A stretch of DNA of 64,000 bases. Source: Arthrobacter sp. CAU 1506 (GTDB taxonomy: Bacteria; Actinomycetota; Actinomycetes; Actinomycetales; Micrococcaceae). The notes beneath the pieces are model-generated. The model was not told where the DNA came from. It made no database searches and saw nothing but the letters and a program-made list of their open reading frames with translations. The stretch is from positions 1 through 64,000 of the forward strand of contig NZ_SUKC01000014.1 of assembly GCF_005047635.1 (NCBI RefSeq). Reading direction: 5' to 3'. The translations under genes were made by a program, and so were the position numbers. This document shows, piece by piece, positions 8,667-52,900 of the stretch. The number at the start of each line of letters is the position of its first letter. The first letter of the stretch is position 1.

Positions 8667-8806
8667 CGGTAGCCGACCAAGTGAGCCCCACTGGACCCTC
8701 GGTGGTCGACCAAGTGAGCCCCACTCGACCCTCGGTGGTCGACCAAGCGAGCGCCAGCCCGCACCCGGTGGTCGACCAAGTGAGCGCCAGCGAACGCGTG
8801 GAGACC
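8667..8806 (+). repeat. Dispersed repeat array, copy A (four units)
   Basis: Four imperfect units are centred on GGTGGTCGACCAAGTGAG, each followed by 10-20 variable bases, and the last ends GCGAACGCGTGGAGACC. The same unit and the same terminal signature recur inside trmD (10560-10710), after gnd (34551-34690) and beside yaaA (52795-52900). One frame through the array reads [13 protein letters not shown], the same peptide as in the trmD insert. Confidence 0.85.
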
Positions 8807-10331: not shown

Positions 10332-11324
10332 GTGCGCATCGACGTCGTCAGTATTTTCCCGGAGTATCTCGCCGCGCTGGACCTGTCCCTGATCGGCAAG
10401 GCCCGGCAGGACGGCCTTCTGCAGCTGAAGGTGCATGACCTGCGGGACTTCACCACCGACCGACACCGCACCGTGGACGACACCCCGTACGGCGGCGGCG
10501 CCGGCATGGTGATGAAGCCCGAGCCCTGGGCCCAGGCCCTGGAATCGCTAGTCACAGACTCCCCGGTGGTCGACGACTCCCCGGTGGTCGACCAAGTGAG
10601 CGCCACACCGGTGGTCGACCAAGTGAGCGCCAGCGAACGCGTGGAGACCCCCGCCGTGCCCGATTCCCCGGTGGTCGACCAAGTGAGCGCCAGCGAACGC
10701 GCGGAGACCCAGAAGGAGCCTGCGCAGCCCGCCGCGGCCCGCCCCATCCTGATCGTCCCTTCACCCGCCGGTGAGGTATTCAACCAGGCTCTTGCCTACG
10801 AACTCGCCCTCGAGGAGCACCTGGTCTTCGCCTGTGGCCGGTACGAGGGCATCGACGAGCGTGTGCTCGAGTGGGCCGATGAGCACTTCCGCGTGCGGCC
10901 GGTCAGCCTCGGCGACTATGTGCTCAACGGGGGAGAGGTGGCCGTGCTGGCGATGGTGGAAGCCGTGGGTCGGCTGGTGCCCGGCGTCGTCGGCAATCCC
11001 GAATCCCTGGTGGAAGAGTCGCACTCGGATGGGCTGCTGGAATACCCCGTCTACACCAAGCCGTCGGACTGGCGCGGACGCGGAATTCCGGAGGTGCTGC
11101 TCAGCGGCAACCACGCCAAGATCGCCCGGCACCGCCGCGACGAACAACTGCGCCGCACCGCCGAACGCCGCCCCGATCTGATTCTGGCGCTGGACCCGGA
11201 GACGCTGGACAAGGCCGATCGCGCCACCCTCAACTCGCTCGGCTACACCATCACGGCCACGCGGGTCCTGCCGGCTGCGCCGGAGTCAGGGGCTGCCGCC
11301 GAAGCGATTCGGCACACTCCCTGA
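10332..11324 (+). CDS. trmD: tRNA (guanine-37-N1)-methyltransferase TrmD with an in-frame repeat insert
   Basis: TrmD methylates G37 of tRNAs reading CNN codons, using SAM bound in a trefoil knot. The N-terminal block ([28 protein letters not shown]) and the knot region ([33 protein letters not shown]) are intact. Between them, residues about 73-136 are an extra segment, [14 protein letters not shown] repeated, encoded by a dispersed DNA repeat. Normal TrmD is about 255 residues; this is 330. The insert falls where many TrmDs have a short loop between PEPW and the [12 protein letters not shown] strand, so the enzyme is probably still active. It starts with GTG directly after the rimM stop. 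Confidence 0.95.
10560..10710 (+). repeat. Dispersed repeat array, copy B, inside trmD
   Basis: Four units beginning CCGGTGGTCGAC start near 10563, 10581, 10608 and 10669. Two full units end GCGAACGCGTGGAGACC or GCGAACGCGCGGAGACC. The array keeps the trmD frame and contains no stop. Units match copy A at 8667-8806 almost exactly, so the spread looks recent. Confidence 0.9.
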
Positions 11325-34550: not shown

Positions 34551-34690
34551 CCGACCGAGGTCGCTTCACCGGTGATCGACCAAGGTCATCTCCACCGGTG
34601 ATCGACCAAGCTTGCCCCACCGGTGATCGACCAAGGCCGTCTCCACCGGTGATCGACCAAGGTTGCTCTGCAACCGCGTGGAGATCCTGA
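34551..34690 (+). repeat. Dispersed repeat array, copy C (after gnd)
   Basis: Four units of CACCGGTGATCGACCAAG, each with about ten variable bases, follow a degenerate first unit (GACCGACCGAGG). The array ends AACCGCGTGGAGATCC, the same signature as copies A, B and D. Here the core has GTGATCG rather than GTGGTCG, as in copy D, so two subfamilies exist. Confidence 0.85.
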
Positions 34691-36363: not shown

Positions 36364-38571
36364 TCAGACCTTCCGCGTCTTGGGCGAGACTTTGGAGGTT
36401 GTGGCGTAGCCCGTTTTGGTGCCGGTAACCTTGACCCTGATCCGGTGACCGCGGTCGGCCGAAACGAGCTTGTAGGTCTTGGAAGAGGCTCCCTTGATCG
36501 CTTTCCCGGAGCGGTACCACTGGTACTTCAGTTTGGTGCCGGAAGTCCACGTACCGGGTTTGGCCGTCAACTTCTTCCCGACCTTAGCTGTGCCAGAGAT
36601 TTTGGGCTTTACAGATTTCAGGGTGCCGGCGGCAACTTTGCCCGTCTTGGCCGAGGCTTTGGTTGCCGTTGCATATCCGGCTTTGGTGCCGGTTACCTTC
36701 ACCACGATCCGATCGGCCCGGTCGGCCGCGACTAGCTTGTAGGTTTTGGACGTCGCTCCCTTAATGGCCTTGCCGGATCGATACCACTGGTATTTCAGTT
36801 TGGTGCCTGAGGTCCATGAGCCTGCCTTGGCTGTCAGCCTCTTCCCGACCTTGGCGGTACCTGTGATCTTCGGAGTGGCGGTTGCGAGGACGCCGGCGCT
36901 GACTCGGACGGCGGCCGATTCGCGGACCGCGGTCTTGTATCCGCTTTTTTCTCCGCTTATCCGGACCTTGATGGACTTGCCGACGTCGGTCGAAGTCAGG
37001 CTGTATCTAGTTCCGGTGGCCCTATAAATCGGGGAGCCGTTACGCAGCCATTGGTATGAGAGGCGAATTGGTCCGGGGGACCATGTGCCAGGCTTCGCGG
37101 ACAAAGCGTTGCCAACCGTGGCTTTCCCGGTGATGAGAGGTGACCCGGATGTCAGTTCCGGCAGGACGGAATTGACGGCCGCCAGCGCGCTCACCAGCCC
37201 AGCGCCGCAGTCGGAGAAACAGCCAGCGATCGGACGCGCAGACTTCTTGATGGCAGTCTCTATTTGGGCCGGGGACAGGAGCGAGTTCGCAGACTTCATG
37301 AGGGCGGCAATGCTGGCCACATGCGGGGCAGACATCGAGGTGCCCTCCATGATGCCGTAGCCCTCTCCAGCGGGGACGGTATTCCCAGTGTTCACTGTCG
37401 AGATGATGCCTCCAGCGGCATAGCGCAGGTCTCCACCGGGAGCTGTCACATCGACTGCAGACCCGTAGTTGGAGTAGTCGGTTAGCTCACCGGTGGGTCC
37501 GGAGGCGGCCACCGTAATAACGTTGCTGCAGTTTGCGGGTGAGGCATCCGCGGCAGGCTCCGCTTCGTTGCCGGCCGCGACCACGACGGTGCTCCCCTTG
37601 CTAACCGCAAAGTTTATGGCGTCCTGCATGGTGGAGTCACAAGGGCCACTGCCGCCGAGGCTCATATTGATGACATCTGCAGGGCTCTGATTCGGACTAA
37701 TGCCGTCCACTTCTCTGCCGCCAGCCGCCCAGATGATGGCGTCTGCGATGTCAGACATCCAGCCCCCGCAAGCGCCCAGCACGCGGACAGGAACGACTTT
37801 CGCACCATGGGCCGCACCCGCAACTCCTCGACCATTGCCTGCGACTGCAGCGATGATGCCTGCCACATGGGTCCCGTGCCACGAAGAGTCGGAACCGATT
37901 TCGTCGCACCAGTCGCCATTGTCCAGCGGATCCTGATCGCGCCCGTCGCCGTCCCGCGATATATCGGGGTCGGAGATCAGATCGGCGCCGGGCAAAACAT
38001 TAGCCTTGAGATCGCTGTGCTGGGTCAGTCCAGTGTCGATCACAGCAACAACGGACCCCTTGCCAGTCGTCGTGAGCCACGTTTCAGGGAGAGCAAGACC
38101 GGCTTTGCTGTTAGAGAATGACCATTGTTGCTTGTAGTACGTGTCGTTTGGACCGTACGCCGGGTACATCAGGACATCCTGCTCCGCGTACTCGACATCG
38201 GGGCGGGCGGACAATGTCGCGACCAGTTCATTGGCTTCCACGGCAGTGAGTTCCCGATCGGACTCGATGATCCTGGCCCCGTCTGCCGTTGTGTGCAGTT
38301 CCTCAAGGGCGACGTCGGTGTCTGCGGCAACTTCGGTATAGGAACTGTCCCGCTCGGTGGAACTGGCACCGGCGGTCTCGCGGAACTTGACAATAAATCG
38401 GTCTCCGCCTGCCTCCGTAGATGCCGATTGAAGCGTGCGGAGATTCGGAAGTTCGGGATGACTGTCCGCAGCGCTCGCGGCAGGAATCGGAAGGACAGAC
38501 CCATATAGGAGCGAAATTGTTAAGGCCGTAACGACCCAGGCTGGTACCAATCTGTGGAACATTCCCAACAT
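36364..38571 (-). CDS. Secreted subtilisin-like serine protease with C-terminal repeats
   Basis: ATG at 38571 with TTGAGG before it gives a Sec signal peptide (VVTALTISLLYGSVLPIPAA, cleavage after ASA). An inhibitor-I9-like propeptide (FIVKFRETAG...ALEELHTT) precedes the S8 domain: Asp in VVAVIDTGLT, His in SWHGTHVAGI and Ser in GTSMSAPHVAS. The last 220 residues are three related segments of about 70-90 residues, each with Y-Q-W-L/Y-R and T-Y-K/S-L, e.g. LKYQWYRSGKAIKGATSKTY; they look like bacterial Ig-like or wall-binding repeats. The length is 735 residues. It is likely to act outside the cell on proteins. Confidence 0.93.
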   Translation of the reverse strand: MLGMFHRLVPAWVVTALTISLLYGSVLPIPAASAADSHPELPNLRTLQSASTEAGGDRFIVKFRETAGASSTERDSSYTEVAADTDVALEELHTTADGARIIESDRELTAVEANELVATLSARPDVEYAEQDVLMYPAYGPNDTYYKQQWSFSNSKAGLALPETWLTTTGKGSVVAVIDTGLTQHSDLKANVLPGADLISDPDISRDGDGRDQDPLDNGDWCDEIGSDSSWHGTHVAGIIAAVAGNGRGVAGAAHGAKVVPVRVLGACGGWMSDIADAIIWAAGGREVDGISPNQSPADVINMSLGGSGPCDSTMQDAINFAVSKGSTVVVAAGNEAEPAADASPANCSNVITVAASGPTGELTDYSNYGSAVDVTAPGGDLRYAAGGIISTVNTGNTVPAGEGYGIMEGTSMSAPHVASIAALMKSANSLLSPAQIETAIKKSARPIAGCFSDCGAGLVSALAAVNSVLPELTSGSPLITGKATVGNALSAKPGTWSPGPIRLSYQWLRNGSPIYRATGTRYSLTSTDVGKSIKVRISGEKSGYKTAVRESAAVRVSAGVLATATPKITGTAKVGKRLTAKAGSWTSGTKLKYQWYRSGKAIKGATSKTYKLVAADRADRIVVKVTGTKAGYATATKASAKTGKVAAGTLKSVKPKISGTAKVGKKLTAKPGTWTSGTKLKYQWYRSGKAIKGASSKTYKLVSADRGHRIRVKVTGTKTGYATTSKVSPKTRKV

Positions 38572-52794: not shown

Positions 52795-52900
52795 AGGTCG
52801 ACCAAGGGGGCCGCTTGGCAAGCTACCCGGTGATCGACCAGGTCCGCCAAGCCCCGGCTCCCGGTGATCGACCAAGGGCCGCCAGGCCCGCGTGGAGATC
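52795..52900 (+). repeat. Dispersed repeat array, copy D (beside yaaA)
   Basis: A degenerate unit (AGGTCGACCAAGGGGG) is followed by two fuller ones: CCCGGTGATCGACCAGG and CCCGGTGATCGACCAAGG. The array ends CCCGCGTGGAGATC, abutting the yaaA stop codon at 52900-52902. It has the GTGATCG subtype, as in copy C. Confidence 0.8.

Follow-up and report, generated by a model that had tools for sequence, protein, structure and literature searches.

A short palindromic element dispersed through an actinobacterial genome sits in frame inside trmD, a gene that, like ileS, is generally essential. The insert consists of four copies of a 40-nt repeat, two whole and two truncated, which share a single frame. 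We consider it very probable that this is a cluster of REP-like elements in a loop of TrmD, and that the element has spread genome-wide, multiplied locally and been kept where it is harmless.

Results

A dispersed repeat interrupts trmD in frame

The window, the whole 64,000-nt stretch of DNA analysed here, belongs to a 44-contig draft genome of the Arthrobacter group (G000). Its trmD product matches NCBIfam NF000648 over residues 1–284 (300 bits against a cut-off of 220); the gene order is presumably rpsP – KH protein – rimM – trmD – rplS, the names other than trmD being our reading of the translations. The TrmD domain is conserved on both sides of the insert, as judged by this match and by a structural match to 7kff, and the insert precedes what we take to be the SAM-binding part. 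Coordinates are collected in Table 1.

Table 1. Position of trmD, its insert and the repeat arrays in the window
Feature	Coordinates	Strand	Remarks
trmD, tRNA (guanosine(37)-N1)-methyltransferase	10332..11324	+	GTG start, 330 aa ORF, NCBIfam match
Insert of repeat units, in frame	10557..10709	+	153 nt, 51 codons (76-126)
Unit 1, truncated 5' part	10565..10574	+	
Unit 2, 5' half	10583..10605	+	stops at hairpin loop
Unit 3, whole 40-nt hairpin unit	10610..10649	+	identical to 8767-8806
Unit 4, whole 40-nt hairpin unit	10670..10709	+	one stem pair A-T -> A-C
Intergenic array upstream of rpsP	8668..8806	+	three half units (first diverged) and one whole
Intergenic array, GATC subtype	34571..34686	+	halves and one whole 39-nt unit
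Array, GATC subtype	52829..52900	+	adjoins 3' end of opposite-strand gene

The first-pass annotation had described a dispersed, mostly extragenic repeat lying in frame inside trmD, with four units that keep the frame. Both points hold: the starts of the units are spaced 18, 27 and 60 nt apart, all multiples of 3. Its figure of about 64 extra residues is too high, as the repeat accounts for 51 codons of a loop of 70 residues (median among relatives, 21). It had also called the insert a near-exact copy of the array at 8667-8806, which is true of one unit (40/40 nt identical between 10610-10649 and 8767-8806) but not of the array, whose layout of 33-nt half units differs from that of the insert. 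Unit 1 and a flanking GACTCC form an exact 18-nt tandem pair, and the cluster seems, on this sequence pattern, to have grown by duplications. Alignment with relatives agreed with the first reading: the insert is absent from 9/9 other congeners examined, and GGTGGTCGA is present in 1/85 readable TrmD loops, the window's own.

The insert occupies a loop of variable length

The TrmD loop was readable in 85 of 90 loci, a few of which are the same genome twice. It has 11–76 residues with a median of 21 (82 distinct loops, the window included). In an AlphaFold model of moderate quality (pTM 0.58), the insert site lies between a helix ending at residue 75 and a strand starting at residue 139, and residues 80–132 have a pLDDT below 50; the insert is thus predicted to form a disordered loop. 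The model aligns with the solved TrmD of C. diphtheriae, 7kff, over 242 residues (Z 24.8, rmsd 3.3). That protein carries a long linker at the same site and its fold is solved, but its loop is ordinary sequence, whereas a dispersed repeat makes up the window's; M. abscessus TrmD has almost no linker there. The variation among relatives, the long linker of 7kff and the low pLDDT thus suggest that this is a place where TrmD tolerates length. Since the site is a freely varying loop in relatives, insertion into trmD probably costs little, and the surprise at finding an insertion in an essential gene is softened by this natural freedom. The same place also expands by other means: Cryobacterium ruanii TrmD (locus L135) has a Thr-Gly repeat run in this loop, and in Kocuria tytonis (locus L088) the loop reaches 76 residues.

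The repeat unit is a hairpin with compensatory base changes

The seed GGTGGTCGACCAAG has 61 exact copies genome-wide, on both strands, against 0 for the reversed control. In the window, 13 matches with up to 2 mismatches compare with 0.72 expected, and none of 100 shuffles reaches 13. The two-mismatch count for the whole genome (199 against 197 in the control) was not used; only places with 0 or 1 mismatch to the seed were followed, and the arrays fetched from the 1-mismatch places of this genome give a lower bound. The 1-mismatch matches in loci L058, L061 and L064 are chance matches with no unit there.

Most units are 38 or 40 nt long (57/65 parsed units), usually with CC leading. From the outside inwards they comprise GGTC/GACC (or GATC/GATC), GA/A, CCA/TGG, a variable inner stem and a 4-nt loop. 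As several of the 65 parsed units ran into the next one, covariation was examined in the 60 units of 38 or 40 nt, 35 of them distinct. Paired cells number 197/204 in the 17 distinct 38-nt units (best of 1000 shuffles 179) and 189/198 in the 18 distinct 40-nt units (best 186), and slid controls score far lower. Cells changed at both sides number 29 in the 38-nt set (best shuffle 17) and 6 in the 40-nt set (best 5). For further pair types, 31/1000 shuffles reach the observed count in the 40-nt set, and the 38-nt set shows no excess over shuffles (943/1000 reach the count). The varying outer-arm pair is G-C in 25/35 distinct units, A-T in 10 and mixed in none, and a GA/AG tandem is conserved in the inner stem of the 40-nt units (18/18 and 17/18). 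The unit is therefore a hairpin with compensatory base changes. This statement rests on covariation because the folding energy of any one copy is unremarkable and hardly differs from that of shuffled sequence (z -0.4 to -2.1). Judged by its sequence, the hairpin would be able to form in single-stranded RNA or DNA.

A second, related unit ends in GAGTAGAGACC or GAGTGGAGACC and occurs as 9 units in the fetched loci, one of them a hybrid. Beside the main unit and in the opposite orientation, a second unit (GGTGGTCGATGGAGGCGCGCCAGCGCCGAGTAGAGACC) lies at L028 2912-3114, L035 2434-2720 and L045 2474-2607; its translation in lhr, E2 and the hydrolase-ligase gene is SLLGAGAPPSTT. An Rfam search of the window returned RNase P and two tRNAs, nothing else.

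Arrays lie mostly just past gene ends

The additional copies in arrays are partial 5' units before a whole unit or 3' ends, mostly of 10–18 nt, after one. The idea that partial 5' units stop at the loop is weakened, since just 19/47 end at positions 18-26, around the loop, and the others at positions from 11 to 39 (one consensus serving as reference). Among the arrays fetched, 25/30 non-genic oriented arrays lie within 150 nt of a gene 3' end, with gene ends called by a codon-bias rule. Of the 30, 13 follow the end of a same-strand gene alone and 4 that of an opposite-strand gene alone; 8 follow ends of both kinds, and 5 follow neither. The resulting sense bias outside genes is modest (13/17, one-sided probability 0.025) and matches that inside genes, where 13/16 sites are in sense orientation (probability 0.011); it could come from the copying process or from selection on the transcript. 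At least 11 further arrays with a whole unit lie inside the genes listed below.

The T-A subtype of the unit, found in 6/60 units, occurs in 4 arrays, two at 8.7 and 10.6 kb of the window and the others on contigs C18 and C1. At L034 (~2480-2620) and L043 (~2430-2560), on different contigs, two units have the same flanks on either side (GGAATTCG-TCC ... GGGA-TAGC-AT), a sign that a segment with the 3' end of cca may have been duplicated. Separately, window positions 36376-36898 hold two copies of a 267-bp tandem repeat with 76% matches, perhaps repeats in a protein gene.

In-frame copies recur in other genes

The insertion into trmD had been presented as exceptional, yet we accepted at least 16 in-frame sites in at least 14 genes of the host genome, drawn from 38 fetched stretches and the window. 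There is one site each in trmD, smc, lhr, ileS, mazG, mfd and the genes for the E2 acyltransferase, a TPP enzyme, an S58 peptidase and an ABC-F protein; two each in the hydrolase-ligase fusion and hrpA; and C-terminal sites in the O-acetylhomoserine sulfhydrylase gene and cca. Sites were chosen by open frames with codon bias and by family matches, so openness through the insert was itself a criterion, and the family matches of mfd, the ligase fusion, E2, the TPP enzyme and mazG fall below the curated cut-off. The cleanest empty site is that of ileS, where 20 residues are absent in 9/9 congeners. In smc and hrpA the congener loops vary too, and the inserts are less clearly bounded.

Inside genes, 15/21 of the distances between unit starts or between unit ends are divisible by 3, against 29/74 outside (Fisher 0.009, the cases not being independent; the 3' list was restricted to places near a unit). 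In the hydrolase-ligase gene at L033, spacings of 25 and 23 nt sum to 48. An unrestricted count (9/13 and 10/13 in genes, 21/50 and 15/37 outside) was set aside for its chance matches far from arrays. Because multiples of 3 are commoner inside genes than outside and the units are mostly 38 or 40 nt long, frame keeping seems to be demanded by the host gene, which would act as a filter, rather than to be a property of the element, and it is best explained by selection after insertion. The suggestion that the element spreads in a form built to keep the frame is not supported by these spacings. That it can be read as protein is true of five of the six frames, which are free of stops in 60/60 units; the sixth is so in just 38/60.

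The frames are used unequally. One sense frame is read at 12/16 accepted sites, an antisense frame at 3 and another sense frame at 1. This one-frame preference and the sense bias inside genes may go beyond simple loop tolerance and are not fully explained by it; the preference, in part unexplained, is where the earlier idea of a protein-compatible form keeps some force.

Related bursts in other genomes of the family

A survey of 197 family genomes for the ends GGTGGTCGA-N12-40-GAGACC gave 0–8 matches in 191 of them (reversed control 0–4) and six outliers: G145 with 144 matches, the host genome with 69, G013 with 62, G101 with 42, G084 with 35 and G181 with 17. G013, which belongs to another genus, carries units of this family (36 seed copies), with copies in ileS (twice), hrpA, treY and purL among 10 stretches read. 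One of its ileS arrays and its hrpA array occupy the same loops as in the host genome, in different array layouts. Because the layouts differ, these same-loop insertions look independent. In G043, the only other genome of that genus, ileS too has a long loop at this place, without the repeat peptide.

The 20 stretches read in G145 contain a 22-bp relative of the unit; its single clear case within a gene is read as PVVEPVET in the linker of sucB. G145, G084, G101 and G181, which represent other genera of the family, show bursts of matches to the same ends; in G145 and G084 these are short units such as GGTGGTCGAGCCTGTCGAGACC. A proposal that the 22-bp relatives in G145 avoid genes was dropped as not robust, since a strict rule placed 1/32 arrays in genes and a looser one 8/29. 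The looser rule gave 14/46 in the host genome and 7/12 arrays in G013, and only 1–2 of the 8 looser-rule cases in G145 looked real on inspection.

Discussion

How the insert would have arisen

In the explanation that we favour, the trmD insert is made up of clustered copies of a palindromic, REP-like element. The copies would have spread through the genome, in which no Y1/RAYT transposase gene was found, and multiplied locally by duplication of partial units, possibly through polymerase slippage or template switching at the hairpin. Slippage at the hairpin would leave a pattern of partial units, but their 5' end points are spread, which makes this step a weak suggestion. Copies would persist mostly just downstream of genes, more often sense to the gene, and inside genes where they lie in loops, in frame, and encode a harmless hydrophilic peptide. 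Judged from the sequence and the structural model, the copy in the length-variable, predicted disordered loop of TrmD is most likely translated, looped out and tolerated.

Compatible with this explanation is a local origin, in which gene conversion or slippage, and not long-range transposition, carried the repeat between trmD and the array 1.9 kb upstream, in either direction. The two arrays have the T-A subtype in common, which is confined to 6/60 units in 4 arrays, and one unit is identical in both; however, the subtype also occurs on contigs C18 and C1, and the layouts of the two arrays differ. We regard a local origin as a tenable possibility, if one we lean against. Misplacement of the repeat into trmD during assembly is conceivable in a 44-contig draft with short repeats, but the insert is only 153 nt long in a gene that is in frame at both sides, and 15 further sites show the same pattern, as does a second genus, which makes an artefact highly improbable. 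Just as hard to credit is a reading in which the protein is normal because the insert is cut out of the RNA or the protein, or because the ribosome skips it at the hairpin. It is prompted by the presence of hairpins in conserved enzymes, yet the accepted sites are open in frame (by the way they were selected) and the spacings in trmD are all multiples of 3, and removal would make frame keeping unnecessary.

The frame preference bears on whether the peptide is adaptive, its frame being kept as a useful linker or regulatory segment. One frame at 12/16 sites has a probability of ~3e-6 if six frames were equal and any could win, or 0.002 if three were usable; the same frame is used in the same ileS loop in another genus, and PVVEPVET lies in the sucB linker of a third. 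Nevertheless, the host proteins are unrelated, the 9 congeners have neither the trmD nor the ileS insert, two further frames are in use at four sites, and the same-loop matches coincide with loops that vary anyway. Tolerance alone, moreover, would enrich a frame without aromatic residues or stops. We therefore think an adaptive peptide improbable. A bolder view, which we hold to be unlikely though somewhat less so, is that a transposase-free hairpin of Actinomycetota has been moulded by life in proteins to favour one strand and frame, that separate bursts in different genera supply one and the same harmless linker to matching loops of core enzymes (ileS, hrpA), and that spread is tied to transcription or to one replication strand. 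If true, the hairpin element would be a recurrent natural source of protein linkers.

The favoured explanation, insertion of a REP-like element into tolerant loops, already adds an actinobacterial family without an obvious transposase to the 'palindromes inside proteins' described for Rickettsia and tagged REPs. The insertions into core enzymes, with empty sites in close relatives and a repetition in a second genus, amount to a natural experiment through which the spread of so small an element, and the way in which proteins accommodate added stretches, become testable. Further work is warranted by how widespread the insertions are, by their bias towards one frame and by their reappearance in a second genus.

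Comparison with known elements

The element is REP-like because it is a hairpin unit and most of the non-genic arrays examined lie just past gene ends. In the broad sense of a REP, it is a short, many-copy palindrome (38–40 nt, 61 exact seeds, covariation) that is mostly intergenic near 3' ends (25/30 arrays within 150 nt). A GTAG or CGTC tag within 8 nt outside the unit end was seen in at most 2/62 units per tag word on either strand, so this is not a tagged REP. A search for Y1 (PF01797)/RAYT genes at E <= 0.001 was positive in 0/10 genomes, including the host and the five other repeat-rich ones, and its control gave matches in 5/14 known genomes; the mobiliser may since have been lost or may come from another family. 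Around 15 units scored as isolated, some with partial neighbours, no flank word longer than 3 nt is shared that would indicate target duplication, and plasmid and phage sources gave no match to the repeat. In the open literature, with subscription journals mostly outside it, no paper was recognised as describing the repeat, and none matches its sequence words.

Tagged REPs are 20–40 nt palindromes, mostly just past gene ends and some intragenic, whose host genes in several bacteria serve DNA repair or encode tRNA synthetases and RNA helicases (Di Nocera 2013, PMC3733652). Palindrome size, placement at gene ends and classes of host genes are alike here, according to the available text of that paper, which makes no mention of Arthrobacter, Micrococcus or Actinobacteria; tagged REPs, however, carry GTAG or CGTC, whereas the units here lack a tag and the genome a Y1/RAYT match. 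As CGTC REPs are likewise described there as having no dedicated transposase, the missing transposase alone is not new (PMC3733652). Nor are REP-like palindromes in Arthrobacter new as such, compared by description: the RepRanger table lists predicted REPs in Arthrobacter livingstonensis, and a word search of the accessible text, in which neither 'in-frame' nor 'RAYT' occurs, turned up no in-frame case (PMC12306157).

MITEs are, like the unit here, short, non-autonomous, dispersed and sometimes read as protein, as portrayed in the accessible sections of PMC10969869, but our unit is much shorter, with imperfect terminal repeats, no clear target duplication seen and no parent transposon found. 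Coding palindromes are also reported in Nematomorpha (PMC6649704, in the portion available; PMC2884548 is cited beside it). The closest parallel in insertion is offered by the Rickettsia palindromic elements (RPEs), dispersed palindromes of which many lie in frame in unrelated protein genes (PMC10969869), as the element does here at its at least 16 sites. RPEs are ~150 bp long and belong to Rickettsia, as described in PMC10969869, whereas here the host is a high G+C actinobacterium, and 38–40 nt units form arrays with partial units and are read in three frames and in both orientations; size and host phylum set the two apart. Although in-frame palindromic elements are already known, this is, by its size and host phylum, probably a different repeat family from that of Rickettsia; the case works like RPEs and intragenic REPs, but as neither a tagged nor a RAYT-served REP.
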